A stretch of DNA of 64,000 bases, from the NCBI RefSeq assembly GCF_000420385.1, contig NZ_ATUV01000002.1:1-64000 (forward strand). Direction: 5' to 3'. The translations under genes and the position numbers were made by a program. Shown here in pieces: positions 9,553 to 56,633 of this stretch; positions within the stretch are counted from its first letter, which is position 1, and each line of letters starts with the position of its first letter. The notes beneath the pieces are model-generated. The model was not told where the DNA came from, searched no databases, and saw only the letters and a program-made list of their open reading frames with translations. The stretch is from Hippea alviniae EP5-r (lineage in GTDB: Bacteria; Campylobacterota_A; Desulfurellia; Desulfurellales; Hippeaceae).

Positions 9553-10558
9553 TCTCTTCTCCTTTTGCCTTACAGTTAAGCTTTTCTCTTAACTTGTTCT
9601 CTATCTCTTCAAGCAGCTCTGGTCTCTCCTTTAGAAACTCCTTTGCATTCTCTCTTCCCTGTCCCAATCTCTCATCGTTGTAAGAGAACCAAGAACCGCT
9701 CTTGTCAACAATATCATGCTCAACGGCAAGGTCTAAAATGTCTCCAACTCTATCTACACCCTGACCGTAAATAATATCAAACTCCGTCTCTTTAAACGGT
9801 GGTGCAACCTTATTCTTTACCACTTTAACTTTTACCCTATTACCAACTGCTTCGCCACCCTGTTTTATTGGTGTTCCTGTTTTTCTTATCTCCATTCTCA
9901 TTGAAGCATAAAACTTCAAAGCATTTCCGCCTGTTGTCGTCTCGGGATTGCCGAACATAACACCAATCTTCATTCTTATCTGATTCAAAAATATTATCGA
10001 TGTGTTCGATTTGCTTATTGCACCGGTTAGTTTCCTTAAAGCTTGACTCATCAGACGAGCCTGCAAGCCCACATGCGCATCACCCATATCACCTTCAATT
10101 TCAGCCTGTGGAACCAAAGCCGCAACAGAGTCAACAACAATTAAATCAACAGCATTGCTCCTTACGAGTGTATCGATTATCTCGAGTGCCTGCTCACCTG
10201 AGTCTGGTTGACTAATAAGAAGATTATCCACATCAACACCCAGTTTTTCTGCATAGTTAACATCCAAAGCATGCTCAGCATCGACAAAAGCAGCTATACC
10301 ACCCTGCTGTTGAGCTGAAGCTATGCAGTGCAGAGCTATTGTTGTCTTTCCGCTGGACTCCTGACCATAAATCTCGATTATTCTCCCTTTTGGAATACCG
10401 CAAACACCCAAAGCAACATCAAGCGATAAAATGCCTGTCGGGATAACATTCACATCAACAGCCTTCATCTCTCCAAGACGCATAAGTGCGCCTTTACCAA
10501 ATGTCTTTTCTATCTTTGAGATAGCCATATTCAAAGATTGCAGTTTTTTCTCATCCAT
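9542..10558 (-). CDS. recA: Recombinase RecA
   Basis: 338 residues, full length. RecA forms nucleoprotein filaments for homologous recombination and SOS induction. Motifs: Walker [14 protein letters not shown] near residue 65, the DAEHALD block, Walker [13 protein letters not shown], and the DNA-binding loop 2 region with [10 protein letters not shown]. The C-terminus is acidic as usual. It lies 3 bp downstream of thpR; no LexA-type box is apparent in this position inside the operon. Confidence 0.98.
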
Positions 10559-16885: not shown

Positions 16886-18784
16886 TTAAATAATTTTAAC
16901 AAGATACCAACCGCTTAAGATGATTATACCCATACTTATCCAATAAGCATAATTATTAACAAATCCCGTTTGTAGCAATCTCAATCCTCTTCCCACTCTA
17001 CCAGCTATCCAACCGGCTCCATCGACCATACCCTTATCTATGAGTATAACATCGACAATCTTCCACAAGAAGTTCGTTGATACCCACCAGAACGGCTTAA
17101 CGATGCAGCAATACACAAACTCATCAACATAGTAAGTGTTTGCAAGCAATGTGTATATCGGTTTGAACATATTCGCAATTTTGTCTGCTGTGATAATTTT
17201 CTTGATATAAATGAGCCATGCAGCAAGAATACCTGAAAGACCCATAGTTACAGAAATACCCATCAATAAAGCCTCAGAGTAGTGTGCTTCATGGGCAACC
17301 TCTGTTGTTGGAGCAGTGTGAGTAACAAACCACTCAAATGGTATATGGCCACCGAATTTAATACCTACCCAGCCACCAACAATGGAAAGTATTCCAAGAA
17401 CCCACATAGGTATAGTCATAACAGGTGGAGCTTCATGTGTATGTAAATCGTGATACAATCCTTCAACTTTTTCTTCTCCATAGAAAACATTAAATACAAA
17501 TCTAAACATATAAAAAGCTGTTAGAAATGCCGTAACTTCTCCAACTATCCATATAATAGGATGACCCATTTCTAAAGCTGAGGCAAGTATAGCATCTTTT
17601 GAAAAGAAGCCTGCAAATGGTGGAATACCAGAGATAGCAAGTGAAGCTATGACCATTAAAATGGCCGTCTGCGGCATGTATTTCTTTAAATTACCCATTA
17701 AATCTATGGAGAGAAGACCTCTCATTGAATGCATTACCGCACCAGCTCCAAGGAAGAGTAAACCTTTAAAGAAAGCATGCGTCATAAGATGGAACATACC
17801 TGTCCAGTAAGCTCCAACACCAACACCAATGAACATGTATCCAAGCTGGGATAATGTCGAATAAGCAAGAATTCTTTTGATATCTTTATGTGTAAGTGCC
17901 ATTGTTGCTGCATAAAACGCTGTAAAAGCACCTACACTTGCAACAACCTCCTGAGCTACTGGAGCAAGAGAGTATATTGCGTTTGATCTTGCTACCATAT
18001 AGACACCAGCTGTAACCATCGTCGCGGCATGAATCAACGATGAAACAGGTGTTGGACCTTCCATAGCATCAGTAAGCCATATATACAATGGGAACTGAGC
18101 AGACTTACCAACAGCACCAACAAACAAGGCCAAACCTATTATTGTAGCAGCCGTAGAGCCATACCCTAAAACCTCTTCAGCCCTTGGAAAAACATTAGAA
18201 TATGTAACGCTTCCAAAGTGATAAATCAAAAACAGAATACCGATAATAAAACCAGCATCACCAATTCTGTTTACTACAAATGCTTTTTCACCCGCATCTG
18301 CAGCTGTATCCTTCTCGTACCAGAAACCGATTAATAAATAAGATGCAAGACCAACGCCTTCCCAACCGACAAACATCAACAAGTAGTTGTTTCCAAGAAC
18401 AAGAATCAACATTGCTGTAACAAACAGGTTGAGATAGGCAAAGTATCTTGCATATCCCCTATCACCTGCCATGTATCCATTAGAATAGATATGAATCATC
18501 CAAGAGACGAATGTAACAACAAACAGCATCACTGCACTTACATAGTCAACTCTTAAACCGAAGGGAACTTCAAGTCCTTTGAATGGCATCCAAGTGAAGT
18601 ATGTAAACTCCACTATATGACCATGTAAAACAGACCAGATAGGAAACAATCCTAAAATAAATGAAATACCTAAAGCAGATGCCGCTATTATACCCGCCAC
18701 AGGTTTTGTCCACTTACCAAAAATACCATTGATTAAGAAACCTATCAGCGGCGTTAACACGATAAATAACAGTATTACCTTCAT
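16886..18784 (-). CDS. nuoL: NADH-quinone oxidoreductase subunit L
   Basis: 632 residues, the largest antiporter-like subunit. The TM5 Glu lies in MFVGWEGVGLASYLLIG and the channel block in KSAQFPLYIWLTDAMEGPTP. A long C-terminal region, including a His-rich loop (HTHEAPP), leads to the lateral amphipathic helix and final membrane anchor that brace NuoM and NuoN. Normal length. Confidence 0.95.
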   Translation of the reverse strand: MKVILLFIVLTPLIGFLINGIFGKWTKPVAGIIAASALGISFILGLFPIWSVLHGHIVEFTYFTWMPFKGLEVPFGLRVDYVSAVMLFVVTFVSWMIHIYSNGYMAGDRGYARYFAYLNLFVTAMLILVLGNNYLLMFVGWEGVGLASYLLIGFWYEKDTAADAGEKAFVVNRIGDAGFIIGILFLIYHFGSVTYSNVFPRAEEVLGYGSTAATIIGLALFVGAVGKSAQFPLYIWLTDAMEGPTPVSSLIHAATMVTAGVYMVARSNAIYSLAPVAQEVVASVGAFTAFYAATMALTHKDIKRILAYSTLSQLGYMFIGVGVGAYWTGMFHLMTHAFFKGLLFLGAGAVMHSMRGLLSIDLMGNLKKYMPQTAILMVIASLAISGIPPFAGFFSKDAILASALEMGHPIIWIVGEVTAFLTAFYMFRFVFNVFYGEEKVEGLYHDLHTHEAPPVMTIPMWVLGILSIVGGWVGIKFGGHIPFEWFVTHTAPTTEVAHEAHYSEALLMGISVTMGLSGILAAWLIYIKKIITADKIANMFKPIYTLLANTYYVDEFVYCCIVKPFWWVSTNFLWKIVDVILIDKGMVDGAGWIAGRVGRGLRLLQTGFVNNYAYWISMGIIILSGWYLVKII

Positions 18785-18796
18785 CGCCTTACCCCT

Positions 18797-19093
18797 CTAC
18801 TTTCTTAAGATTGAGAAGTCGTTAATATCAACACTCTTTTTCCTTTTATACATCATAACGGCTATTGCAAGGCCAACGGCTGTTTCACTTGCAGCTACAG
18901 CAGCTACAAACAAAAACATAACCTGACCCGAAACATTACCAATGTAATAAGACATAGTTATAAGCAGAAGACCTGCGCCGTTTATCATAATCTCCAACGA
19001 CATTAGCACTATCATAAAGTTTCTTCTTATCATCACTCCTGTAGCACCAATCGCAATCAACAGTGCCGAGACAACCATGTATTGAGTTAACAT
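18797..19093 (-). CDS. nuoK: NADH-quinone oxidoreductase subunit K
   Basis: 98 residues, three membrane helices. Both buried glutamates needed for proton translocation are present (VLMSLEIMINGAGLLLI and AAVAASETAVGLAI). Standard place between nuoJ and nuoL. Confidence 0.95.
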   Translation of the reverse strand: MLTQYMVVSALLIAIGATGVMIRRNFMIVLMSLEIMINGAGLLLITMSYYIGNVSGQVMFLFVAAVAASETAVGLAIAVMMYKRKKSVDINDFSILRK

Positions 19094-19103
19094 TTCAACC
19101 CCC

Positions 19104-19616
19104 TTACTTTATATCCCTTTTGGTCAATACAACGGCACCAAGCAACGCAACAAGCAAGATAATAGCCGTTATTTCAAAGGGCAGCAAATAATGTTTAAAC
19201 AAAACTTCTCCTATAAGCTGAGTATTGCTGCCATTTATTGCGAGATTCTTGCCTGCATTTCCCATATTTATATGAAATTTAATAGCAAGCAAAATCAAAT
19301 CGGCAAGCAAACCAGCACCTAACATAGCAGGCCAGAACCACTGTGAATTAAATCTCTTTAAACCTTCTATCGTTCTTCTATCCATAACCATCATTGTAAG
19401 CATAATCATAACGGCAATAGCTCCAGCATATACAATAACTTGGAGCATGGCATTAAACTGCGCATGAAGCATAACAAATAGACCTGCTATACCAAAAAAC
19501 GCAAGAATCATAAACAAAGCAGCTCTGTAAGGATTCTTGCTTAAAAGCACTCCCAGCGCTCCAACGACAGTTATAAAAGCTATAATGTAAAATACTAATG
19601 CTTCCATTTCTATCAC
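19104..19616 (-). CDS. nuoJ: NADH-quinone oxidoreductase subunit J
   Basis: 170 residues, five membrane helices. The conserved TM3 region IVYAGAIAVMIMLTMMV contains the pi-bulge helix that couples quinone chemistry to proton transfer. Overlaps nuoI by 4 bp. Confidence 0.93.
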   Translation of the reverse strand: MIEMEALVFYIIAFITVVGALGVLLSKNPYRAALFMILAFFGIAGLFVMLHAQFNAMLQVIVYAGAIAVMIMLTMMVMDRRTIEGLKRFNSQWFWPAMLGAGLLADLILLAIKFHINMGNAGKNLAINGSNTQLIGEVLFKHYLLPFEITAIILLVALLGAVVLTKRDIK

Positions 19617-20032
19617 CCTTTTTTAGTTTTAGTATTTAACAGCTGCTCTTTTGTATAGATAAATTTCTCCCTATCATACTCAGCAAGTTCATATACATCC
19701 GTCATACTCAAGGCAAGTTCAGGACAGACTTCAACACACAAACCACAGAACAGACACCTTCCCAAATCTATTTCATACCCTGCAGCGTTCTTTGTGTGGT
19801 CTTCATTCTCAACAGGTGTAATTTTTATACATTTGGAAGGACAAACCCTTTCGCAAAGACCACAGTCTATACATTTTATTTTTCCGCTATCTTCGAATGT
19901 CTCAAGTTTATGCAACCATCTGCCACGCTCAGGTACTTCCAATCTCTCATCTGGATATTGGCAGGTAACTGCATGCGTGAACAGATACTTTATCGTTACG
20001 CTTAAACCTTTTCTCAAATCGTTAAATAACAT
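19613..20032 (-). CDS. nuoI: NADH-quinone oxidoreductase subunit I (2x[4Fe-4S])
   Basis: 139 residues, ferredoxin-like peripheral subunit carrying clusters N6a and N6b. Two full motifs are visible: CIDCGLCERVCPSKC and CLFCGLCVEVCPELA. The N-terminus (LRKGLSVTIKYLFTHAVTCQYP) is the usual amphipathic membrane-contact helix. Lies between nuoH and nuoJ. Confidence 0.95.
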   Translation of the reverse strand: MLFNDLRKGLSVTIKYLFTHAVTCQYPDERLEVPERGRWLHKLETFEDSGKIKCIDCGLCERVCPSKCIKITPVENEDHTKNAAGYEIDLGRCLFCGLCVEVCPELALSMTDVYELAEYDREKFIYTKEQLLNTKTKKG

Positions 20033-20044
20033 GGCGCCTTCCTC

Positions 20045-21037
20045 CTACAAAACTGGTAAACCCACTGCCAAGGCAAAACCTGTCCAAAGAATGTTCAAAA
20101 CCATTAAAGGCAGTAGGATTTTCCAGGCTATATTCATAAGCTGGTCGTATCTGTATCTTGGAAATGTTCCCCAGAACCATGTAAACATAAAAATGAAGGC
20201 TAATATCTTAATCCAATACCATACAAAGCCCGGCAGAACAGGTCCTGTCCATCCACCCAAGAACACGATACTTGCCAAAGCCGATACAACAAATATCGTA
20301 ACATACTGTCCAAAGAAAAACATACCCATCTTTAAGCCAGAAAACTCTGTCATGTGGCCTGCAACAAGCTCTGGCTCTGCTTCTGGCAAGTCAAACGGAA
20401 CCCTTGCACACGCCGCAATCATAGCTATTACAAAGGCCACAAAGGCAAAGGGCTGGTAAAAAACGAACCACAAATGTTTTTGTGCTTCCACTATTTTGTT
20501 TAAGTCCAATGAGTGTGCCATTAAAATAGGGTTCAACAAAGCCAAAGCCAAGATTGCTTCATAACTTACAACCTGTGCTGCTTCTCTCTGGGAACCTGTA
20601 AACGCATATTTACTTCCACCAGATGCTATACCTGCAGTTAAAACACCAAACGATGCAAGACCCAACATTGCAAGGATAAACAGAACATCAACATTTGAGT
20701 GGAATACACTTAAGTAAAACACTTTACCACTCGAAAGATGAATCGGCGGTCCAAACGGTATAGCTATAGCAGCTGCAAACGGTAAAGTTGCAGCTATAGC
20801 TGGAGCAAGCCAAAATAAGGGTTTATCAGCCCTATCTGGAATAACATCTTCCTTCCAAAAGCTCTTTATCGTATCAGCTATAGGCTGCAAGAGACCATGC
20901 CAGCCAACCCTCTTTGGTCCAATTCTTTGTTGCATATGACCGATAACCTTTCTCTCATACCAAGTCGCATACATAACATAAACACTCAGAACAGTAACAA
21001 CCACTATCAACTTTATTAACGCTATTAATACTTCCAT
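20045..21037 (-). CDS. nuoH: NADH-quinone oxidoreductase subunit H
   Basis: 330 residues, eight membrane helices. NuoH forms the quinone-site floor and the first half-channel. Motifs: RIGPKRVGWHGLLQPIAD near residue 38 and the acidic loop RVPFDLPEAEPELVAGHMTE. Normal length. Confidence 0.96.
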   Translation of the reverse strand: MEVLIALIKLIVVVTVLSVYVMYATWYERKVIGHMQQRIGPKRVGWHGLLQPIADTIKSFWKEDVIPDRADKPLFWLAPAIAATLPFAAAIAIPFGPPIHLSSGKVFYLSVFHSNVDVLFILAMLGLASFGVLTAGIASGGSKYAFTGSQREAAQVVSYEAILALALLNPILMAHSLDLNKIVEAQKHLWFVFYQPFAFVAFVIAMIAACARVPFDLPEAEPELVAGHMTEFSGLKMGMFFFGQYVTIFVVSALASIVFLGGWTGPVLPGFVWYWIKILAFIFMFTWFWGTFPRYRYDQLMNIAWKILLPLMVLNILWTGFALAVGLPVL

Positions 21038-21039
21038 AG

Positions 21040-23388
21040 CTACTCACCCTTCGTAATTTTTGCACTAAATAGGTTATTTAGAGACCCGCTTAGATTATAA
21101 GCGTTATAACCATCATACCACAATGGAACAGCTACATAGCCCTTAGGCATCTTCTCATCAATTTTAACCTTTAGCATCAAACTATCTTCGCCTTCTACCT
21201 TTGCTAATGAACCATCTTCTAAACCTAAGGCTTGAGCATCTTCAGGATTCATCTCAAGCAAAGGCTCTGGGGATGCAATACTTGCACCTTCTCCCAAAGA
21301 TGAGAAAATTCCAGACCTAAACTTAGAATATACAACCACTCCTTTTATATCTCCACTTACCGAGACAACAGAGTTTATATCAACATAACTATCAGCAACA
21401 CCTTCAAGCTCAAATGGGTTGCCTTCGGCTATCTTCTTTACATAGCCCATCTGCAGGTTGTATCCATACTCTTTCGAGATATCTGCAAGAATCCTATAAC
21501 CAGCAATCCTGTTTTCTTCAATGGCTTTCCTGATTGTGTTAAGCTTACCTTCAACATTTATATAATGTCCATCAACACCTGCAAACGAAGCCATCGGAAG
21601 AACAACTTTGGAATGCTTCACAGACTCGTTCTTGTATGCACCTATTAAAATTGTGTCTGCATTCTTGAATATCTTTTTTGCATCTGTATCGCTGAATAGC
21701 TCAAATAGGTCAGCTCCCAAAAGCACCAACGCCTTTACTTTTCCTTCTTCTGCTAACTTTGGCAAGTCATACAGACTAAAGCCCAACTCTGACACCTTTC
21801 CATAGACATCAAAGCCGTTGGCTGTGCCTGTATATAGAGAGCCAAATGAGTTATTGTATTTGCTTGATGCATAGAGTCTTACATTTTCACCAAACAAAAG
21901 CAGAAGGTTTGATAAAGCCAAAGCAACTTCGTTGCCGTTTGCCCTTTCTAATGCTTCTTCTCCAACAATTAGAGCAACCTTTTTAGCATCAGCTAAAGTT
22001 TTAACGGCATCTTCTGCTATCTCAACTGTGCCTTTAATATTCGTATCAACACCTTTAGCAGAAGCAAGGGCACTAAATAGACTATTCAAAAACTCAACTT
22101 CCTTACCCGGCTCATACCTTAAAGCAACGCTGCCGAGCGTGTCTATCTTTGTATCTCGCCAGTAAGCGCTTATAAGCTTTGATTTCTTAAGCAGTTTTAC
22201 ATTTCTTGTTATCTGCCAATCGAGTCTCGGCATCTCATTGGCAACATCACCACCAAAGGCAAGTATTACATCGCAATCTTCCATATCCCTTACATTGTTA
22301 AATGGAGCCACACTTTTCGGCAAAACCCTGTAAAGCTTGGCTATGTGGGTTGATGCCACAGAATCAATATTGTTTGTCTTCAATGCGTTATTAAAGAACC
22401 TCTTAAGTGCATACTGGTCTTCAATCGTTTCCCTTCCACCACATACAGCAGCTATCTCTTCAGGCTTGTAAGCCTTTAGAATATTGGCTGCTTCTCTAAC
22501 TGCATCTTCATAAAGAACTTCCTTCCCTCTAATATGAGCAGCAGATATAAGATTTTTTCTCTCTACCACAGAATAGTTGAACCTACCAAGATTACACAAA
22601 TTTGCCATGTTTGGCGTGTAATCTTCACTTGTAACTCTTAAAACCTTGTTATCTTTTACATTCAAGTCCATCTGACAGCCAGATGAACAGAACTGACAGG
22701 TTGTTCTAATTTTCTCCATTTCCCACGGGCGAGCTTTATACTTAAACAGCTTACTACTCATTGCACCCGTAGGACAGATGCTCACACACTGACCACAGAA
22801 TTCGCATTCTAAAGGCTTACCATCTGTAGTATCTATCTCTTTTCCACCCCAATCCTTCTTTACAAGCTTTAGAATGCCGAAGTTTACAACCTTATCACAT
22901 ATCGTAACACATCTTCTACACTGAATACATAAGTTGGCATCATGATGAATAATTCTCCACTCGTGATGAACTGTTCTATTTGGAACAGTTAAAGGATCAG
23001 CTTCTTCTTCGAGTGGATTGCTCGTAATATTCAAATCGTAGTTTACATCCTGAAGGTCGCACTCACCGCTTTTATCACAAACACCGCACTGAAGTGGATG
23101 GAACTTATCCCACTCCCAAACAATCTTGTTTCTTGCTTCTATAACCTTTTCTGAGTCTGTTAATACTTCCATGCCGTCTTTAACCTTAACGGCACAAGAG
23201 AGCATGGGCTTTTTCATACCCACTATCTCAACAACGCATACACGGCAAGCACCTATAGCACCAAACCTGTCAGAATAACAGATGGCAGGGATATATATGC
23301 CGTTTCTTCGTGCCACCTGCAAAATTGTTTCATCTTTGCTTGCTTCATACTCTTTTCCATTTATCTTTATTTTTACAGTATCAGCCAT
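21040..23388 (-). CDS. nuoG: NADH-quinone oxidoreductase subunit G
   Basis: 782 residues, the large iron-sulfur subunit. In order: [2Fe-2S] N1b ligands (CYSDRFGAIGACRVC ... C), the His-liganded cluster motif HPLQCGVCDKSGEC, two ferredoxin-type motifs (CIQCRRCVTIC and CEFCGQCVSICP), the N7-type motif CQFCSSGC with a distant fourth Cys, then a molybdopterin-oxidoreductase-like domain. It follows nuoD by 12 bp; nuoE and nuoF, which normally sit between D and G, are absent. With no NADH module, NuoG is the likely entry point for electrons, probably from ferredoxin or an unidentified partner. Confidence 0.92.
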   Translation of the reverse strand: MADTVKIKINGKEYEASKDETILQVARRNGIYIPAICYSDRFGAIGACRVCVVEIVGMKKPMLSCAVKVKDGMEVLTDSEKVIEARNKIVWEWDKFHPLQCGVCDKSGECDLQDVNYDLNITSNPLEEEADPLTVPNRTVHHEWRIIHHDANLCIQCRRCVTICDKVVNFGILKLVKKDWGGKEIDTTDGKPLECEFCGQCVSICPTGAMSSKLFKYKARPWEMEKIRTTCQFCSSGCQMDLNVKDNKVLRVTSEDYTPNMANLCNLGRFNYSVVERKNLISAAHIRGKEVLYEDAVREAANILKAYKPEEIAAVCGGRETIEDQYALKRFFNNALKTNNIDSVASTHIAKLYRVLPKSVAPFNNVRDMEDCDVILAFGGDVANEMPRLDWQITRNVKLLKKSKLISAYWRDTKIDTLGSVALRYEPGKEVEFLNSLFSALASAKGVDTNIKGTVEIAEDAVKTLADAKKVALIVGEEALERANGNEVALALSNLLLLFGENVRLYASSKYNNSFGSLYTGTANGFDVYGKVSELGFSLYDLPKLAEEGKVKALVLLGADLFELFSDTDAKKIFKNADTILIGAYKNESVKHSKVVLPMASFAGVDGHYINVEGKLNTIRKAIEENRIAGYRILADISKEYGYNLQMGYVKKIAEGNPFELEGVADSYVDINSVVSVSGDIKGVVVYSKFRSGIFSSLGEGASIASPEPLLEMNPEDAQALGLEDGSLAKVEGEDSLMLKVKIDEKMPKGYVAVPLWYDGYNAYNLSGSLNNLFSAKITKGE

Positions 23389-23400
23389 ATCCTACACCCC

Positions 23401-24597
23401 TTATCTATCGCATTCGCCGAACACGAAGTCCAAGCTACCGATTACCGAGATAATATCCGCTATCAACCCACCCTTAACCATCTTTGGCATAGCACTAATG
23501 TTGATAAAGGATGGTGCTCTTATCTTTAACCTGTAAGGCTTGCCTTCACCCGTTGAATAGATATAGAAGCCAAGTTCTCCCTTTGGATTCTCAGCACCAA
23601 AATAGACTTCACCCGCAGGAGCCTTAATTCCTTTTACAACCTTTACAAAGTGCTTCATTAAGGCGTAGTTGTTCATCATCAGTCTCTCTTTTGGCTCCCA
23701 CACATACTGTGGAGCATCAATCATCGCAGGTCCAGAAGGTATTTTTTCGATACACTGCTCAAGAATTCTGTTAGATTGCAGCATCTCATCCATTCTCACA
23801 AGGTATCTTGCATATACATCACCATCATCATAGACTGGAACTTCAAAATTCAGTTCAGGATAAACCAAATAAGGCATATCCCTTCTTAAGTCCCAATCTA
23901 CACCGCTTCCCCTTGTGCATGGACCTGCTATACCGTAATTAATAGCATCTTCCTTAGAAATATATCCAACACCTTTGGTTCTCTTCAGCCAAATCCTATT
24001 TTTGGTAAGAAGAGTATGATACTCTTTTAATTTTTTCGGGAAGAGTTTTACAAACTCACTCAGTTTCTCCATAAAGCCATTAGGCAAATCCCTTGCAACA
24101 CCACCTATTCTTATATAGTTGTAAGTAAGCCTGTTTCCGCAAGCCATCTCATACATATCAAGTATGTATTCCCTTTCACGGAAACAGTAAAGGAATACAG
24201 TCATAGCACCGATATCAAGGGCGTGTGTTGCAAGCCAAACAAGGTGTGATGCTATTCTGCCAAGCTCAGCCATTATAACCCTTATATATTGGGCTCTTTC
24301 TGGGATATCTTTATCTATCCCCAAGAGCTTTTCGACAGCCATGGCATAAGCCAAGTTGTTGTTCATGGCTGCCAAATAGTCAAGCCTATCCGTATAAGGG
24401 TTAAACTGTTGATAGGTCATGTATTCGGCTAATTTTTCTATACCTCTATGCAAGAAACCAACTTGGGGGTCGGAGTCAACAATTCTCTCACCATCCAGCT
24501 TAACGACATATCTCAAAACGCCGTGCGTTGCTGGATGCTGCGGACCAACATTGATTACGACTTCTCTCTCGTTATTAACTTCATAAGTTTTATTCAT
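23401..24597 (-). CDS. nuoD: NADH-quinone oxidoreductase subunit D
   Basis: 398 residues, the quinone-site subunit homologous to the hydrogenase large subunit. Motifs: NVGPQHPATHGVLRYVVKL near residue 16, VGFLHRGIEKLAEYMTY, and the C-terminal DFVFGECDR. The quinone-binding His and Tyr regions are intact, unlike the paralogue at 52348-53574. Confidence 0.96.
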   Translation of the reverse strand: MNKTYEVNNEREVVINVGPQHPATHGVLRYVVKLDGERIVDSDPQVGFLHRGIEKLAEYMTYQQFNPYTDRLDYLAAMNNNLAYAMAVEKLLGIDKDIPERAQYIRVIMAELGRIASHLVWLATHALDIGAMTVFLYCFREREYILDMYEMACGNRLTYNYIRIGGVARDLPNGFMEKLSEFVKLFPKKLKEYHTLLTKNRIWLKRTKGVGYISKEDAINYGIAGPCTRGSGVDWDLRRDMPYLVYPELNFEVPVYDDGDVYARYLVRMDEMLQSNRILEQCIEKIPSGPAMIDAPQYVWEPKERLMMNNYALMKHFVKVVKGIKAPAGEVYFGAENPKGELGFYIYSTGEGKPYRLKIRAPSFINISAMPKMVKGGLIADIISVIGSLDFVFGECDR

Positions 24598-24614
24598 TTT
24601 ACATACTCCTTAAG

Positions 24615-25145
24615 TTAAGGCATCCTTGTGTGTCTTGGTTTTTTAATTTGACCTTCGGGAAGATGCTTATCAAGCCACAAATCATCTTCAGGTTTACCTT
24701 TAAGCGGATAATCCTTTCTCAAAGGATAACCTTCCCAATCTTCTGGCATCAATATCCTTCTTAAGTCTGGATGATTGTTAAACTTTATACCAAACATGTC
24801 GTATGTCTCTCTCTCATCCCAGTTAGCAGAATGCCAAATAGAAACAACGCTATCAACAGGTTCATCTTCCTTTGTTCTCGTTTTAACTCTCATAATCATT
24901 TTATGCGGTATAGACCTTATCTCATAAACCAAATCGAATCTCTCTTCCCTTTCAGGAAAATCAACGGCTGTCATCATTACAAGATAATCAAATTGTAATT
25001 CTGGGTCGTCATGCAAAAACTTCATAAGCTCAACAAGCTTCTCCTTTTTAATCGTCACGGAGAGCTCATCTCTAAAGGTGTCATGCTCTATGATGTAATC
25101 CCCAAATTTTGATTTTATCTTCTCAAACAACTCCTCGTTAGTCAT
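24615..25145 (-). CDS. nuoC: NADH-quinone oxidoreductase subunit C
   Basis: 176 residues, 30-kDa-type subunit. The signature [19 protein letters not shown] is followed by [20 protein letters not shown] near residue 125. Separate from nuoD (not fused). Confidence 0.94.
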
Positions 25146-25160
25146 AGAATCTCTCCTTTT

Positions 25161-25622
25161 TTAGGCTTTCATTGAGCCTTCTCTTCTGATCTTCTCCTGA
25201 AGCTTCATAATTCCATACAACAGACCTTCTGGTCTTGGTGGACATCCAGGCACATATACATCGACAGGCATGATAGTATCCACACCCTGAACAACGCTGT
25301 AGGTATCAAACATTCCACCTGTATTAGCACAAGAACCCATAGAAATAACCCACTTTGGGTGTGGCATCTGGTCGTAAACCTTTCTTGCTGCTATAGCCAT
25401 CTTTTTCGTCAATGTTCCTGCAATTATCATAATGTCGGAATGCCTTGGAGACGCTCTAAAAACAACACCAAACCTATCAAGGTCAAAACGAGATGCACCT
25501 GTTGCCATCATCTCAATAGCACAGCAGGCAAGACCAAATGTCATAGGCCACAAAGAAGAGTATCTTGCCCAACTAACAAGCTTGTCCAACTTCGTCGTTA
25601 TCCAAGGATTCTCTACTCCCAT
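25161..25622 (-). CDS. nuoB: NADH-quinone oxidoreductase subunit B
   Basis: 153 residues, carries the terminal [4Fe-4S] cluster N2 that reduces quinone. All four ligands are visible: tandem Cys in [10 protein letters not shown], then GSCANTGG and VPGCPPRPE. It is the right comparison for the cysteine-free paralogue at 51888-52367. Overlaps nuoA by 10 bp. Confidence 0.96.
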
Positions 25623-25963
25623 TCCAGTGCTCCTTTCTTATAAGCATAAATCCAGCCCACAAAAACCATTACAACAAACAGACCCATCTCAATGACCCCA
25701 AGGATACCCAACTGTTTAAAGTCAACAGCCCACGGATACATGAATACCGCTTCTATATCGAACAGTGTGAACATGATAGCAATGATATAGAAACGGATAT
25801 TCATGTGTCTGAGTTCGGATACCATAGGATATCCGCACTCATACAGGTCAAACTTTTCAGGGTAATATTCCTTGGGGGCCAAATACTTAGAAACAGCCAA
25901 CATCGCAAAGAAGATGATAAACAAGACAATAACTGAAATAAACGCAATAAGCCAGTTAGTCAT
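25613..25963 (-). CDS. nuoA: NADH-quinone oxidoreductase subunit A
   Basis: 116 residues, three membrane helices. The conserved first loop [14 protein letters not shown] contains the Cys that lies near the quinone site. First gene of the nuo operon, preceded by a purine-rich AGGGGG ribosome binding site. Confidence 0.95.
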
Positions 25964-26006
25964 ACTCCGACCCCCTTAGCATTATTTTACTTCTAACCCG
26001 TGCAAA

Positions 26007-26034
26007 ATTTTACATTAAACAGTTCAACTGTCAA
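26007..26034 (-). promoter_or_regulatory. Promoter of the nuo operon
   Basis: Minus strand TTGACA (26034-26029), 16 bp, TAAAAT (26012-26007), about 40 bp upstream of nuoA. A terminator for the preceding nfn genes lies just upstream, so nuo is an independent unit. Confidence 0.65.
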
Positions 26035-26084
26035 CAGTAAAAATTATGAACAATTAAATACCAAATAACCTTTAACCAATAACT

Positions 26085-26121
26085 ATAAAAATTAAGAGGG
26101 TGTTAGGTTATACTAACACCC
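26085..26121 (-). terminator. Rho-independent terminator after nfnB
   Basis: Minus strand: perfect 9-bp stem GGGTGTTAG/CTAACACCC (26121-26113 with 26106-26098), 6-nt loop, followed by TCTTAATTTTTATAG. Ends the nfnAB unit before the nuo promoter. Confidence 0.8.
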
Positions 26122-26134
26122 CTTGTTTCTATTT

Positions 26135-28395
<2,261 letters not shown>

Positions 28396-49978: not shown

Positions 49979-50006
49979 ATTTTAACACAATCTACAAAAT
50001 ATTCAA
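49979..50006 (-). promoter_or_regulatory. Candidate promoter of trpA
   Basis: Minus strand TTGAAT (50006-50001), 16 bp, TAAAAT (49984-49979). The -35 overlaps the stop region of the preceding gene. No leader peptide or hairpin series like that of trpE is seen before trpA. Confidence 0.5.
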
Positions 50007-51886
50007 ACTCTTCCAAACAAAACAAAAATCCCCACAAAAATTACAAGTATATAAAGCAGATAAAAGTATATTTTTCCGTTCATTATGAATTTACTTATAT
50101 TGTAGCTTGTAATCTCGACAACCTTAACCAAAAAAGCATAAACAGACTCAAAAACATCCGATATAACAACAAAAGCCTCTTTGTCTCTTCTGACTTCTTT
50201 TGTTCTATACACAAATCTAAGGATATACTCAACTATAAACGAGAAGGCATTAGCAGTAAAATACTCATCATCATTTAGAGCGAGTCCACCATTCCAAGAT
50301 ACAACCTTCTTTGTTCTCTTTCTTTTGTTTAAATAAATTACAAATGGAACAAAAAACAAAGTCAAAACAACCAAGACAAAAAACGCTGGAGAAATAACAC
50401 CAAACACAGGCTTTGCGCTGGCTATAAGCCACCCATTTGGAACACCTAAAGCACCTATAACAAATTTAGCATAACCCAGTTTAACAAATACAATAGTGGC
50501 AAAAAAACTTATACCAATAATCAAACCCATAAGAAAAATCTCAGATAAATGCATAAATAAAGATGGCATAGGTTTTGCCTTTTTCTCATGATGATAACCT
50601 AAAGCAGAATAACCTATAAGTTTTATCATAGAAAAAGAAGCAAAACCCATAGCTAAAGACAAAAATACACCGCCCGTAGAACTTACAACCCTATCCAGAA
50701 TACTTTGAAACTGATAGGATTGAAAAATAGACTCAAGCAGCATCCACTCGGCCACATAACCCAAAAGAGTTGGAAAAGCACTGAAAGACAAACCAGAAAT
50801 AACAACACCAAAAGCTGGAATCTTTCCTACACTTTTATGAATACCCCTTACATTATCTATGCTCTCCTCGTGCAATTTCTCCTTCGCTTCACCTATAGAC
50901 AAAAACAAAAGCGTTTTTGCAATTGTGTGAGTGATTGATAGAATTATAGCTGTCATAAAAGCAAATTCATACAGAGTTGACTCCTTGGAAAAAGAATAAG
51001 CAAGAGCAGACAAACCCAATGCAGCCAAAATCATACCATTGTTTTCAACTGTTGAGTATGCCGGCAAAACCTTTAAACCTTTTGCCGCAGCCGCCTCCAT
51101 AGCACCCCAAAATGCCGACACACTTCCAAAGATTATAGCCAGAATCCCCCAGCTGTGGGTATAGCCTGTTATATATATAACCCTTGTCAATCCATAAACC
51201 CCCATAAGTGTTACAGGTGCACTCAACAACGCAGAAACATTTGACGGAGCCTTTGAATGAGCCTCCTTCAACCAAGTGTGAAATGGAACTATACCCATTT
51301 TTATGATAAAAGCCAAAGACGCAAAAACCAAGAACAAAACACTTTGAGAATGAACTTCAACTATCCTTAACGAATTAATTGAGCTATATAGAAAAACAAA
51401 AGCCAAAATTAAAGACATGGTTGATATCTCGCTAAAAGCAAGAAATTGAAACGCTTCTTTATAGGCACCATCGTGTTCAACCACAAGAAGATAAGACGCT
51501 ATTGTCATAATCTCCCACCCAATCAAAAACATAACACCGTCGAAAGCAGCCAAGATAAGTAGCATTCCCAACATAGCAAGATTTACAAAAATTGCCATTC
51601 TCTTTCTATAGTTCTCTCCAAAATCCATTGAGAAAACAGACACTGCTATCCAAGACACAGAAGCTATCATCAAAAACAAGCCGCCCAACTTATCAACAAA
51701 AAGCCCAGAAGATATAGAAAAAATAACAGGAAAAATCTTCTTATAAACAATCCCATTAAACTCAGCATTAAACCCTATAACAAAAGAGAGCAAAGAAGCC
51801 AAAAATGCAACAAAATAGCTTAATTTTCTATTGAAAAATCCCAAAAATGCTCCTATCAAAAACAGTCCTATGGCTAAACTCAACAT
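50003..51886 (-). CDS. HyfB/NuoL-like antiporter subunit of a complex I-related (Ehr-type) complex
   Basis: 627 residues, ~16 membrane helices, proton-conducting MrpA/NuoL family. The TM5 Glu (MFLIGWEIMTIASYLLVV near residue 125), TM7 Lys (IKMGIVPFHTWLKEAHSKAP) and TM8 His/Lys (HTIAKTLLFLSIGEA) needed for ion translocation are present. The C-terminal extension with a charged loop and last anchor resembles HyfB. Last of six genes starting at 56541; 1 bp separates it from the upstream gene. It is clearly distinct from nuoL in the same window. Confidence 0.85.
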   Translation of the reverse strand: MLSLAIGLFLIGAFLGFFNRKLSYFVAFLASLLSFVIGFNAEFNGIVYKKIFPVIFSISSGLFVDKLGGLFLMIASVSWIAVSVFSMDFGENYRKRMAIFVNLAMLGMLLILAAFDGVMFLIGWEIMTIASYLLVVEHDGAYKEAFQFLAFSEISTMSLILAFVFLYSSINSLRIVEVHSQSVLFLVFASLAFIIKMGIVPFHTWLKEAHSKAPSNVSALLSAPVTLMGVYGLTRVIYITGYTHSWGILAIIFGSVSAFWGAMEAAAAKGLKVLPAYSTVENNGMILAALGLSALAYSFSKESTLYEFAFMTAIILSITHTIAKTLLFLSIGEAKEKLHEESIDNVRGIHKSVGKIPAFGVVISGLSFSAFPTLLGYVAEWMLLESIFQSYQFQSILDRVVSSTGGVFLSLAMGFASFSMIKLIGYSALGYHHEKKAKPMPSLFMHLSEIFLMGLIIGISFFATIVFVKLGYAKFVIGALGVPNGWLIASAKPVFGVISPAFFVLVVLTLFFVPFVIYLNKRKRTKKVVSWNGGLALNDDEYFTANAFSFIVEYILRFVYRTKEVRRDKEAFVVISDVFESVYAFLVKVVEITSYNISKFIMNGKIYFYLLYILVIFVGIFVLFGRV

Positions 51887-51887
51887 A

Positions 51888-52367
51888 TTATCCCTCCATT
51901 ATGTTCAATAAAACTGAAAGTATATTCTCAGCATCAAGCTTTTTGTTGAAATACCCCACAACATTTTTCAGACCCAAATCCTTAGCGCTTATCCCAACAT
52001 CATCTTCATCTTCTATTATCACCACACCAAAAGGCTCTGGCATCTGATTAACCGTCTCTTTTAAAGGCTCAATCATCTTTTCGGAAACCTTACCCAATAC
52101 CAGCAAGATATCAGCATGTCTCGGGGAATCAGTGAAAAATATACCAAATCTATGAATATTGTACTGCGGAGAAGCCAAAGCTGATATCTCAAAGTTTAAA
52201 GAGTTATCGTTAGAAACATCGATAGGAAACACATGCAGAGATTTTTTGAAAATGCTTATCCTTTCAACGGGCTGTTCTGTTTTTTTAAAACTTTCCGTAA
52301 TCCTTTTTGATATCCCGTAAATAGTCCAAGGTTTCATCTTGCCACTCCTATCTCGCACAATCTGCAA
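51888..52367 (-). CDS. NuoB/HyfI-like subunit with no cysteines
   Basis: 159 residues. The family core is recognisable from IHRFGIFFTDSPRHADILLV near residue 73, which aligns with [20 protein letters not shown] of NuoB at 25161-25622, and from NQMPEPFGVVII against [12 protein letters not shown]. The protein has no Cys at all. The tandem-Cys segment is replaced by SNDNSLNFEI, the GSC loop by IEDEDDVGIS, and the PGCPP loop by VGYFNKKLD. It therefore cannot bind the [4Fe-4S] cluster that defines this subunit. The reading frame is intact and overlaps the upstream gene by 20 bp, so this is not a sequencing break. Confidence 0.8.
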   Translation of the reverse strand: MQIVRDRSGKMKPWTIYGISKRITESFKKTEQPVERISIFKKSLHVFPIDVSNDNSLNFEISALASPQYNIHRFGIFFTDSPRHADILLVLGKVSEKMIEPLKETVNQMPEPFGVVIIEDEDDVGISAKDLGLKNVVGYFNKKLDAENILSVLLNIMEG

Positions 52368-53574
52368 AATTTATTCCAAAGGAATCCAAGGCAAAGCTAA
52401 AATCAGTAAATATAAACCCAACTAAAGAATCAGCGAAAGCTTTATAACCAAAGACAGAAGGAGAAGATATATACACATAATCAACCACACCACCTTCAAG
52501 CTCCACATAATAAACAACCAAACCCGTTGGAGACTCAGCAGCACCTATACCAAACCCATCTACATTAACAGCATCTTGAGATATACTCACCTCTTCTCTC
52601 ACTTCATCCAAAAAAGTGCACACAATATCGCAAGATTTCAGAATTTCACATGCCCTAACTTCCATTCTTGCAAGGGCATCTCCATCTTCTCTTAAACAAA
52701 CTTGCAGGTTCTTATACACATCTTCATATCTTCTTAAATCCTCTTCAACTCCGCAAGCTCTTAAAGAGGGGCCTGTTATTCCTATACTTAGAGCTTTATC
52801 TTTATTTAAAACCGCTGTCTTATATACTCTGTCAATAAAATTATAGCTCCTTAAGGAATGCCTATACAACTCTTCAAACTTTCTTTTAAAAAATTCAACT
52901 CTCTTCTTTATCTCTACAATGTTTCTGCTATTTAAAAACTCAATACCACCTATATTGTTGATACCCTTCAAAAATCTGTTAGAAGAAAATAGTTTATTTA
53001 TCCTTAAACTCTCTTCAAATAACCATTCAAGATGAGAAGTAAGAACATTTTGAGCTGCAGCTTTAGACAACCTTGCTATAACATGGATATGATTGTAAAT
53101 CCTTTCAAGCTCAATAGCTATAGCTCTCAAAATCTTAACCTTGTCTTCAACTCCTATATTACAGGCATCCTCAACAGCCCTTGCAAAAGCCAAAGAGTGA
53201 GAAAATGCAAAATTTCCACAAACAGATTCCGAAAGTTTTAAAGCTTCAACCGGCTTTTTCCCTTTCATTAATTTTTCAATACCTCTTCTCTTATAAGAAG
53301 GGTCGATATTAACAGACAAAATTCTTTCACCATAAGTTCTTATATTAAAAATACCAGCCTCTGCAACACCAGCTGTAACAGGACCGTATCTAAAATTAAA
53401 AACACCTTCACCTTCCTTATCCTCATTGCCTATTTTCAAATCCCTATTCTTGAGCACATAATAGTTATCAAATCTCTGCTCCACTTCTTCTGCTTTTTTA
53501 ACATAAAAAGTATAACCTTCTTGTAGCAATAAAAACTCTTTACCTTCTTTCTCAATAACTCCAAGGAGCCTCAT
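52348..53574 (-). CDS. NuoD/HyfG-like large subunit lacking half of the Ni-Fe ligands
   Basis: 408 residues. The family block RYGPVTAGVAEAGIFNIRTYG near residue 62 (abbreviated) is followed by PSYKRRGIEKLMKGKKP. The N-terminal hydrogenase motif (normally CGxC) reads SVCGNFAFSH, with Cys119 kept and Phe122 in place of the second Cys. The C-terminal motif (normally DPCxxC) reads INFADCAR, with Phe403 for the first Cys and Cys406 kept. A full NiFe site cannot form. Only ~60 residues precede the NuoD-like part, so the NuoC-like domain is reduced or absent. The neighbours identify it as part of an Ehr-type complex. Confidence 0.82.
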   Translation of the reverse strand: MRLLGVIEKEGKEFLLLQEGYTFYVKKAEEVEQRFDNYYVLKNRDLKIGNEDKEGEGVFNFRYGPVTAGVAEAGIFNIRTYGERILSVNIDPSYKRRGIEKLMKGKKPVEALKLSESVCGNFAFSHSLAFARAVEDACNIGVEDKVKILRAIAIELERIYNHIHVIARLSKAAAQNVLTSHLEWLFEESLRINKLFSSNRFLKGINNIGGIEFLNSRNIVEIKKRVEFFKRKFEELYRHSLRSYNFIDRVYKTAVLNKDKALSIGITGPSLRACGVEEDLRRYEDVYKNLQVCLREDGDALARMEVRACEILKSCDIVCTFLDEVREEVSISQDAVNVDGFGIGAAESPTGLVVYYVELEGGVVDYVYISSPSVFGYKAFADSLVGFIFTDFSFALDSFGINFADCAR

Positions 53575-54953
53575 TTTATCATTCCCCCAACAAGCAAAGT
53601 GTTTATAAATCCAACTGCAAACACAACAAAAAAAGCAAGAAGAGTATTCAAGACAGGAATAAACAGCGCCATATTATCTTTGTTCTCGAAATTTCTATCG
53701 GAAATAGAAAAAGACATTCTCACGACCTTGTAATTCACAGCAAAAAAGGACAAGGTTAAAAACGCCGATAAAACTACAGTCAGAAATAATCCAAATTTTA
53801 AATATACCGCATATATAATCAAAGCTTCGCCAACAAAATTTGCGAAAGGTGGAGCTCCGGTCACGGCCAAAGACGACAGAACAAGGTTATAAGCGCCTAT
53901 AGGCATTACCTTTGAGAGCCCCCTTATTTCTGTTATGTCCCTTGTCTTGTAAACGGATAATATGTTACCAGTTGTGTAGAAAGCCGAAGATTTAGCGAAA
54001 GCATGAGCAACAATGAGAACAACAGCTCCAAGAAGAGCAAATTTATTACCCAGAGCCAAACCTATAAGTATCATTCCCATATTCTCCATAGAAGAGTATG
54101 CAAACATTCTCTTGTAAAACTTTTGAGAAACAAGAAAAACAGAAGCAAACCCAACCGTTAAAACCCCTAACACAAGCGCAAACGCTTTCACTCCCTCAAC
54201 AAAGCAAGATATCTCTATAATCCTATAAACACCAAATAGAGCAACAGGCAAAAGAACGCCGGAAAATATAGCACTAACAGGTGCTATAGCCCTTCCATGC
54301 ACATCAGGTAACCATGTATGCATAGGAAATATTCCTGCTTTTGTTGCAAAGCCTGCAACCGTAAAAGCAGCTCCCAAAGCAAAAAGTCTTGGATGAACAG
54401 GAGAAGTAATCAAAAGTTTGGTTATATAAAGCGTTTTTGAACCTGCATATATAAGCATAACGCCAATTAAAGACATAACAAGACCAACAGAAACGACTAT
54501 TATGTATCTCCACGAAGACTCAAGCGAAGCTTCGTCGTTATCTATAGCCACAAGCAAAGCACTTGTTATTGTTGTTGCTTCTATACCTACCCACAGCAAA
54601 CCCAAATTATTAAGCGAAACACTAAACAACATAGTAAGCACAAATAGATTCAAAAACATATAGTAATAACTCTTACTCAAAAGTGGTTTCTCTACATGCT
54701 TTAAATAAGTAATGGAGAATAAAGCAGTTGATAAATACACTACGGAAACAACAACCAACATTATCTTTGAAAAACCATCAATATAGAAAAAATTAGAGTG
54801 AATAGGAAAAACAAAGAGTAAAAACACTGAAGATAAAACACTACTTAAAGAAAAAACAGCAGTAAAAACTTCACTCAATCTCTCACTCTTAGATAAAGAT
54901 ACAACAGAAGCCAAAAAAGGAAATAGCATTGGCAAAAGGTAATAGTATCTCAT
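53571..54953 (-). CDS. HyfF/NuoN-like antiporter subunit
   Basis: 460 residues, ~14 membrane helices. The TM5 Glu (LGLLWVGIEATTITSALLVA near residue 118), TM7 Lys (ATKAGIFPMHTWLPDVHGRA) and HAFAKSSAFYTTGNI are present, as in ion-translocating HyfF/MrpD-type subunits. With the 627-residue protein it gives the complex two antiporter-like channels. Overlaps the HyfG-like gene by 4 bp. Confidence 0.85.
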   Translation of the reverse strand: MRYYYLLPMLFPFLASVVSLSKSERLSEVFTAVFSLSSVLSSVFLLFVFPIHSNFFYIDGFSKIMLVVVSVVYLSTALFSITYLKHVEKPLLSKSYYYMFLNLFVLTMLFSVSLNNLGLLWVGIEATTITSALLVAIDNDEASLESSWRYIIVVSVGLVMSLIGVMLIYAGSKTLYITKLLITSPVHPRLFALGAAFTVAGFATKAGIFPMHTWLPDVHGRAIAPVSAIFSGVLLPVALFGVYRIIEISCFVEGVKAFALVLGVLTVGFASVFLVSQKFYKRMFAYSSMENMGMILIGLALGNKFALLGAVVLIVAHAFAKSSAFYTTGNILSVYKTRDITEIRGLSKVMPIGAYNLVLSSLAVTGAPPFANFVGEALIIYAVYLKFGLFLTVVLSAFLTLSFFAVNYKVVRMSFSISDRNFENKDNMALFIPVLNTLLAFFVVFAVGFINTLLVGGMIK

Positions 54954-54958
54954 GGCTT

Positions 54959-55594
54959 TTACCCCTTAAACTCTTCAAATTCTTCGGAAATATCAGAAAC
55001 ATAGTTTTCCCTTAGTCTCATTATTATTCCAGAAATCATTACAATTCCTATCAAATCAAGGAGTATTCCACCTTCAATAATAAGTGGAAGCTCTGGAAAC
55101 ATATAGCCAGCAAATAAGAAAAGACTATTTTCCATCACCATGTATCCTATAAGCTGAACAAAAGCATTGTTTCTTGAAATTATCAAAAATATACCCTGAA
55201 GAATCAGAGCAATAGGGATGGAACCTGCCTTCGCATAGGTTATGTCATACAAAGTGAAATTGTATAGAACATAAGCAACAATAACTAACAACAAAGAAAT
55301 AATTATCGAAGCCGCTGTCGGTATCACATGCTTTGGCTCTCTGTCCTTGTAATAAGAATTAAGTTTTTTAAGCATATAGCCTGGAATAAACAAGCCCCTT
55401 ACTGCAATTGTTAGAAATGCTAAAACCAAAAGACTTGTATTATTCAAATACACTCCATTAGCAAATAGAAAAAATGCTATAGAAATCGAAGATATAGCAA
55501 ATGTCATAATGATTTTTTTAAGATAAACCTGCCACTGCATAAAAATCACAAGAACAATTTGCAAAAAACCAATAATTAGATATACATCTTTCAT
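54959..55594 (-). CDS. HyfE-like membrane subunit (NuoK-related)
   Basis: 211 residues, ~6 membrane helices. LIGYMVMENSLFLFAGYMFP near residue 147 carries the buried Glu typical of HyfE/NuoK. The short region FIPGYMLKKLNSYYKDREP is the HyfE-type loop. It overlaps the HyfC-like gene by 4 bp and precedes the HyfF-like gene by 5 bp. Confidence 0.82.
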   Translation of the reverse strand: MKDVYLIIGFLQIVLVIFMQWQVYLKKIIMTFAISSISIAFFLFANGVYLNNTSLLVLAFLTIAVRGLFIPGYMLKKLNSYYKDREPKHVIPTAASIIISLLLVIVAYVLYNFTLYDITYAKAGSIPIALILQGIFLIISRNNAFVQLIGYMVMENSLFLFAGYMFPELPLIIEGGILLDLIGIVMISGIIMRLRENYVSDISEEFEEFKG

Positions 55595-56541
55595 AGCGAA
55601 CCTCCGGTTGTGTAAAATACAACAATAGCAAGAAGGGCAAACGAGAACGCAACAGCAACATACTCAAAATTTTTAAACAATTTATATTTCGATACAGTTG
55701 ACTGAATAGTTGCAAATATAAATGTCAAAATTATCATTTTAAGCAAATGTATGAGACTGTAAATCAAAACGGCCATAAAGCTCACCTTCATAGGAACCCA
55801 AAAGGGAACAAGAAAATCATTCAAGAATACACTCATAAGTAAAAATTGTTTTATATACCCGCCCCATTTCATAAGAGCTAATTCTGTGCCAGAATACTCC
55901 ATTTCTATTGCCTGATCTATCATTCCAAATTCATTATTGGAGTGAGATTCTATAGGCAACTTACCTGTTTCCAACAACAGAGCCATAAAGAAAGCAAAAA
56001 CAACAAACCAGTGAACCAAAGAAAGATACCAATGAGTTGATGTTTGAAGAACATTGTTTACGGCATAAGGGTTATTGGTATGAGATATAACACCGAAGGA
56101 GATAAATATCAAAACCAGTATAGGCTCGGCTAAAGCCCCTATAGATGATGCCCTTGAAACACCGAGATGAGCATAATTGCTTCTACTATCTAAAGATGCG
56201 AGTTTCTTTAAAACCCCGATAGCGCCAAAAACCAATCCACCACCAATAAAGTCAACAACAGGCCCAAATGTCAAAGGAAAAGCCGTAACAATAGGCAAAA
56301 CCAAAGTCAAAAACAGATAGAGAGTGAATGTAATATAAGGAACAATCTGAAATAAAGGCGATGCAACTTCTGGAACAACGCTCTGTTTTCTAAAAAGCTT
56401 GAATAAATCGTAATAGGGCTGAAAAATCGAAGGGCCAACTTTGGACTCATACCTTTCGGTAAGTTTAGCGAATATACCCGCTATAAGTGGAGCAAGGATA
56501 ATAACATACAACAGCTGAAATAGACTCAGGGCAAACAACAT
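55591..56541 (-). CDS. HyfC/NuoH-like membrane subunit
   Basis: 316 residues from the ATG at 56541, which has GAGAGGTGG just upstream; a frame extending further would run into the riboswitch. ESKVGPSIFQPYYDLFKLF near residue 28 and LLETGKLPIESHSNNEFGM near 190 with EMEYSGTELALMKWG are HyfC/NuoH hallmarks, including the acidic loop that faces the peripheral arm. First gene of the six-gene operon and directly downstream of the fluoride riboswitch. Confidence 0.88.
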   Translation of the reverse strand: MLFALSLFQLLYVIILAPLIAGIFAKLTERYESKVGPSIFQPYYDLFKLFRKQSVVPEVASPLFQIVPYITFTLYLFLTLVLPIVTAFPLTFGPVVDFIGGGLVFGAIGVLKKLASLDSRSNYAHLGVSRASSIGALAEPILVLIFISFGVISHTNNPYAVNNVLQTSTHWYLSLVHWFVVFAFFMALLLETGKLPIESHSNNEFGMIDQAIEMEYSGTELALMKWGGYIKQFLLMSVFLNDFLVPFWVPMKVSFMAVLIYSLIHLLKMIILTFIFATIQSTVSKYKLFKNFEYVAVAFSFALLAIVVFYTTGGSL

Positions 56542-56580
56542 TTTGCCACCTCTCAATAACAATATTTTATATATGGTCAG

Positions 56581-56633
56581 ATAGGAGTCATTGGCTCGTG
56601 AAGAGCGATTAAAGGCGAACTCCACCGCCTTTA
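56581..56633 (-). ncRNA. Fluoride riboswitch (crcB-type) aptamer
   Basis: On the minus strand, P1 is UAAAGGCG (56633-56626) with CGCCUUUA (56617-56610). Its loop GUGGAGUU contains GGAGU (56623-56619), which pairs with ACUCC (56588-56584) to form the pseudoknot. P3 is GCUC/GAGC (56606-56603 with 56597-56594). The conserved 3' segment AAUGACUCCUAU follows directly. This matches the GGCGAUGG...CGCC...AUGACUCCUA pattern of fluoride riboswitches. The equivalents of linchpin A40-U48 (A591, U583 of 56xxx) are kept. The usual A6/U38 pair is here G (56625) and C (56593). It lies between a consensus promoter and the HyfC-like gene. No intrinsic terminator follows, so control may be at translation. Function is inferred from sequence and fold. 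Confidence 0.78.

Follow-up and report, generated by a model that had tools for sequence, protein, structure and literature searches.

A conserved Ehr-type operon in Hippea alviniae lacks redox-centre ligands and retains predicted ion-path residues

The six-gene operon and its genomic setting

Six genes on contig 2 of Hippea alviniae EP5-r, a sulfur-reducing vent bacterium whose assembly spans 1.75 Mb in 4 contigs, encode a relative of respiratory complex I. The stretch analysed here, called the window, comprises the first 64,000 nucleotides of that contig (NZ_ATUV01000002.1; window G+C 38%), and the operon occupies positions 50003-56625 on the reverse strand. Pfam and NCBIfam matches assign its adjoining genes in the order HyfC-E-F-G-I-B:

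55591-56625, reverse strand: HyfC/NuoH-like membrane subunit (Pfam PF00146, 2.4e-29)
54959-55594, reverse strand: HyfE-like membrane subunit (NCBIfam hydrogenase 4 membrane subunit, 6e-12)
53571-54953, reverse strand: HyfF-like antiporter-like subunit (NCBIfam hydrogenase 4 subunit F, 1.8e-119)
52348-53574, reverse strand: HyfG/NuoD-like large subunit, 408 aa (PF00346, 2.8e-25; PF00374, 3.3e-10)
51888-52367, reverse strand: HyfI/NuoB-like small subunit without Cys (NCBIfam NuoB, 1.4e-12)
50003-51886, reverse strand: HyfB-like antiporter-like subunit (NCBIfam hydrogenase 4 subunit B, 7e-105)

The probable starts of the HyfC-like and HyfI-like genes are ATG codons at 56541 and at 52337 (residue 11), respectively. 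The closest PDB relatives of the large and small subunits are MbhL (2e-28) and MbhJ of Pyrococcus MBH (E 3.4e-12). The flanks are biosynthetic, with a tryptophan synthase alpha gene downstream and trp-type genes upstream on the opposite strand. Ortholog neighbourhoods contain no conserved partner gene, the best candidate being one family common to 5 of 19 loci, and relatives of the operon proteins were absent from the viral contigs scanned. As stated in the first-pass annotation of this locus, no 2x[4Fe-4S] gene is present inside the operon, nor is one conserved beside it. That annotation had also named a separately encoded iron-sulfur partner as a finding that would overturn its reading. We reject such a hidden partner: there is no Fe-S gene in the operon and none that is conserved next to it, and the genome encodes only three PF01058 proteins, of which the two outside the operon belong to an uptake hydrogenase and to an ordinary complex I (NuoB), leaving no second NuoB-like candidate. 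The ordinary complex I is itself encoded in the window (NuoA-D at 23401-25963); assigned by eye from translations, its operon (16886-28395) comprises NuoA-B-C-D-G without NuoE or NuoF and directly adjoins a glutamate synthase small-subunit/NfnAB-like pair (26135-28395).

Ligand positions and ion-path residues

The comparisons below rest on a group of 20 loci, clade A, that comprises the window, 16 relatives from its class, a 'Bacteroidetes' MAG (L004) and two further genomes (G120 and G273). The group is set off by a sharp gap in score, with at least 196 bits for clade A and at most 79 bits for everything else. The HyfI-like subunit (159 aa) carries the motif FGIFFTDSPRHADILLV and contains no Cys, both as first reported, and its alignment with Cys-bearing relatives (hhalign E 3.6e-24) locates the ligand columns of cluster N2:

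52197-52208, reverse strand: D54 to L57, the columns of the first two N2 ligands (CxxC), by hhalign alignment
52005-52007, reverse strand: E121, the column of the third N2 ligand, by hhalign alignment

The loop that would carry the fourth ligand (PGCPP) is deleted downstream of E121. The first-pass annotation considered the Cys-less NuoB its most striking point, a judgement that holds for the ligand columns and not for the bare count: as Cys makes up about 0.8% of residues in sampled window proteins, a protein of 159 aa has a roughly 28% chance of containing none, and several HyfI orthologues of the clade carry one or two Cys elsewhere in the protein. What is remarkable, as read from the alignments, is the loss at the four ligand columns that are kept by group 4 hydrogenases and by most Ehr (energy-converting hydrogenase related) complexes. 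The second N2 Cys column is Leu throughout clade A, and the small subunits of the clade keep an N-terminal MxxWxxxGL segment, the ferredoxin domain being gone.

Two remnants of the Ni-Fe motifs are recognisable by alignment in the HyfG-like subunit:

53209-53220, reverse strand: C119-G-N-F122, remnant of the N-terminal Ni-Fe motif (CxxC in hydrogenases)
52351-52380, reverse strand: FGINFADCAR, residues 399-408, remnant of the C-terminal Ni-Fe motif

One of the four Ni-Fe cysteines is retained, namely C119 (19/20 clade members), and F122 takes the place of the other cysteine of that CxxC in 20/20, in line with the earlier assignment of Phe122. The corresponding assignment of Phe403 to a C-terminal Cys position has to be withdrawn, as F403 lies one column off: the motifs SFNLCYSCTDL (L104) and SFNLCYACADR (L153), aligned to SFGINFADCAR of the window protein, together with the terminal R, fix the register and assign the Cys columns to N402 and D405. 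Neither column retains its cysteine, and D405 is invariant (20/20). The reference large subunits L104 and L153, which belong to the Ehr clade, have a CxxC near the N-terminus and another in their last residues, and are possibly living intermediates from hydrogenase to Ehr.

In the window protein, G64, A68 and G120 occupy the columns of the His and Tyr residues by which NuoD binds quinone, roles assigned from what is generally known about complex I. HyfG retains H126, R158, D279, R281, D299 and D391, which are common to the wider family, and has R62, Q175, H181, Y355 and D405 as clade-specific residues; in HyfI, the clade-specific invariant polar residues are H72 and E104. AlphaFold2 models of HyfI and HyfG, made from 3-row alignments of window and L004 sequences only, are of low confidence (mean pLDDT 51).

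The antiporter-like subunits show the pattern of the ion-translocating complex I superfamily, that is, Glu in TM5, Lys in TM7 and Lys or Glu in TM12. In HyfF, Glu, Lys and Glu at the positions of NuoM E144, K234 and E407 are invariant (19/19), and in HyfB the TM5 Glu and TM7 Lys are invariant (20/20), with the third acid (TM12) being Asp in a single member and Glu in the other 19. A series of acidic residues is kept in the HyfC loop that connects the old cavity with the arm, and the clade alignment marks their arrangement as clade-specific (GKLPIES..NEFGMIDQ..EMEYSG). At the level of sequence, the membrane arm (HyfB, HyfF, HyfC and HyfE) retains its predicted ion-path residues and is subject to purifying selection.

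Distribution of the operon and N2 loss across the Ehr family

Of the 24 relatives from the class that were searched, 16 carry the operon, with members of its own genus, family and order among them, and the six-gene order is identical in every clade A locus with the full region. All four N2 ligands are missing in 20/20 loci. The first-pass annotation had asked whether the Cys losses recur in homologues, and had taken close relatives with all cysteines as a sign of decay here; the losses do recur, the close relatives lack these cysteines too, and the recurrence in 20 loci rules out sequencing error. Five close pairs give dN/dS values of 0.06-0.19 (HyfI) and 0.11-0.20 (HyfG), near the range of the membrane subunits, which on the whole are more conserved than HyfG. 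A relic in decay is therefore very improbable. Some relatives gave no match to the operon, all three f3 genomes among them (two rated 100% complete), an absence that fits decay and suggests that it is non-essential and dispensable in some lineages, but the reading frames are intact, synteny is strict, dN/dS is well below 1 across genera, and the losses are common to the whole clade.

Ehr complexes are defined by a large subunit without the full Ni-Fe CxxC...CxxC set (PMC10284858, PMC4378227), and they have been described by this loss of Ni-Fe ligands, their function being unknown (PMC10284858, PMC4378227, PMC6349859, PMC7304191). Our trees were built on HyfG, HyfC and HyfF, with the small subunit left out, from Ehr loci found on plasmids and in a 386-genome survey, and E. 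coli Hyf and Nuo served as the reference sequences. Clade A is nested inside Ehr, in a larger subgroup with the C-E-F-G-I-B order (SH-aLRT 100) to which loci from Burkholderia, Mycobacterium branderi and three further genomes also belong. Tree position and gene order support the Ehr-type assignment of the first-pass annotation, and the loci have Hyf-like B, C, E, F, G and I genes and no full Ni-Fe CxxC...CxxC set. The small subunit departs from other Ehr in having no N2 ligand, which we take as a variable trait and no bar to membership because N2 has been lost in other Ehr lineages too. In the open literature, a scope that leaves out the founding papers (Marreiros 2013, Coppi 2005), we found neither a report of N2 loss in Ehr nor a statement that N2 is a defining feature. 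The N2-less form is a variant within an already known family.

Across Ehr, the N2 ligands are nearly all-or-none, with 4/4 in most loci and 0/4 in others. None is left in clade A, M. branderi (L056), G150 (L147), Allomeiothermus (L058), G190 (L140), G315 (L119), G039/G186 (L053, L124) and G081 (L123), and L051 and L148 have one ligand left each. Placed on the tree, this trait requires at the fewest 7 changes, 5 of them forced by strong branches, and a single origin or clade of N2-less forms is rejected (AU p 2e-39). The data are compatible with a common loss in clade A, M. branderi (L056) and G150 (L147) (AU p 0.60), and we therefore count at least five losses. Such repeated loss argues that at least parts of the Ehr family do not live on electron transfer.

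The fused ferredoxin domain of seven proteins (L121, L151, L056, L147, L058, L140 and L148) has one Cys of the first motif and the CxxCxxC of the second, which make up one whole [4Fe-4S] cluster by the usual ferredoxin ligand scheme. Judged from these motifs, the ligands of one cluster are exactly retained and those of the other lost as a unit. Single-cluster domains of this kind occur in lineages with and without N2. Clade A, with both N2 and the ferredoxin domain gone, is the most stripped form among the Ehr surveyed. Two Ehr copies per genome were seen in G142 (L134/L143), G150 (L147/L153) and G359 (L142); one G150 copy is without N2, and the other has N2 and Ni-Fe-like Cys pairs. A plasmid of Alicyclobacillus sp. 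ALC3 (L057) encodes an Ehr-type large subunit at 8602-10098, and the 9 kb on each flank yielded no further Ehr gene.

Comparison with known systems and possible function

As in other Ehr complexes, there are six hyf-like genes, a large subunit without full Ni-Fe CxxC motifs and an antiporter-like arm, whereas most Ehr surveyed have four N2 cysteines and many a fused ferredoxin domain, and clade A has neither. With the group 4 [NiFe] hydrogenases (Hyf/FHL, Mbh) the operon shares subunit homology, but it has no HyfA/HyfH ferredoxin subunits, no Ni-Fe site with its four ligand cysteines and no proximal [4Fe-4S] cluster N2. Homologues of NuoB, NuoD, NuoH and NuoL/M/N connect it to respiratory complex I, but it has no NADH module and no clusters, and the features expected of an NADH, ferredoxin or F420H2:quinone enzyme, namely N2 and the quinone-binding His/Tyr of NuoD, are absent, the latter positions being replaced. 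Mrp antiporters also have antiporter-like subunits with conserved Glu/Lys, but contain no HyfG or HyfI, and the genome here has no MrpE. The inorganic carbon pumps DabAB/MpsAB provide a works-like analogy only: they too tie a NuoL-like subunit to non-redox chemistry (PMC13144422), whereas HyfG and HyfI belong to other families, and a DabA carbonic anhydrase-like gene is found neither in the operon nor as a conserved neighbour.

The locus thus encodes a conserved protein set in which neither an Fe-S site nor a complete Ni-Fe or quinone site can be recognised, and in which the ion path is retained so far as alignments can tell. It may represent an Ehr relative that has discarded its electron path (ferredoxin domain, N2 and complete Ni-Fe site), and whose membrane arm would move protons, or act in Na+/H+ exchange, with no electrons transferred. 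HyfG and HyfI would then form a cap that gates or couples this arm through ligand binding or conformational change. In one version, an ion gradient would drive a non-redox step on a ligand, as in DabAB; the NuoL-like subunit of DAB2 serves non-redox, gradient-coupled CO2 hydration (PMC13144422). In the other, the complex would be an Mrp-like antiporter that keeps pH or ions (Na+) in balance; the lack of MrpE, the presence of one PF00999-type exchanger in the genome and the acid tolerance of D. amilsii (PMC5317093) make a role in pH balance plausible, no more. We lean slightly towards an Ehr variant in which ions move while no electrons pass the G-I module, either coupled to ligand binding or a non-redox step or as in a simple antiporter. 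The first-pass annotation had proposed such ion movement; recurrence in 20 loci, purifying selection and the conserved antiporter residues support its premise that the redox centres were lost and the ion-path residues kept, and the movement itself we infer. Ortholog neighbourhoods contain no conserved neighbour that names a ligand or reaction, which counts against this explanation, and C119 in 19/20 loci means that some metal or thiol chemistry could persist. We give about an even chance to the more specific proposal that this ion machine has lost all redox function, as the final stage of a stepwise, repeated removal of Fe-S clusters in Ehr, and that the old quinone/Ni-Fe cavity drives or gates the arm solely by ligand binding or non-redox chemistry.

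How quinone chemistry is coupled to distant ions in complex I is a long-standing question. If our reading is correct, nature provides a homologue with the ion arm intact and all redox centres gone, which splits the two halves of the machine and would allow complex I coupling to be studied without electrons; the N2-less variant would likewise make the function of the whole Ehr family testable.

HyfG and HyfI might instead support redox chemistry by other means, binding flavin, heme or another cofactor, or receiving electrons from an outside protein, with C119 and D405 in a new site. The conservation of these two residues (19/20 and 20/20) is consistent with this, as are the one or two ferredoxin-type cluster motifs retained by other N2-less Ehr lineages, in which electron input may outlive N2. 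We nevertheless consider it unlikely, given that no cofactor domain and no conserved Fe-S or flavoprotein neighbour was found, that Leu fills the second N2 Cys column throughout the clade, and that the quinone positions are Gly/Ala/Gly in the window protein. That HyfG and HyfI are a scaffold that merely holds a standalone antiporter-like arm together would accord with the greater overall conservation of the membrane subunits and with Mrp antiporters functioning without HyfG/HyfI-like subunits, but is rather doubtful in view of the clear purifying selection on HyfI and HyfG themselves and of their clade-specific invariant polar residues (R62, Q175, H181 and D405 in HyfG; H72 and E104 in HyfI).

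Annotation by name would make the operon a functional formate hydrogenlyase or hydrogenase 4, which is scarcely credible: the subunits do match Hyf models, but only one Ni-Fe ligand of four is left, and no N2 ligand. The formate-hydrogen lyase listed for D. amilsii in its genome paper (PMC5317093) is probably the clade A operon (L050, G018), as the search of that genome turned up no second group 4-type operon.
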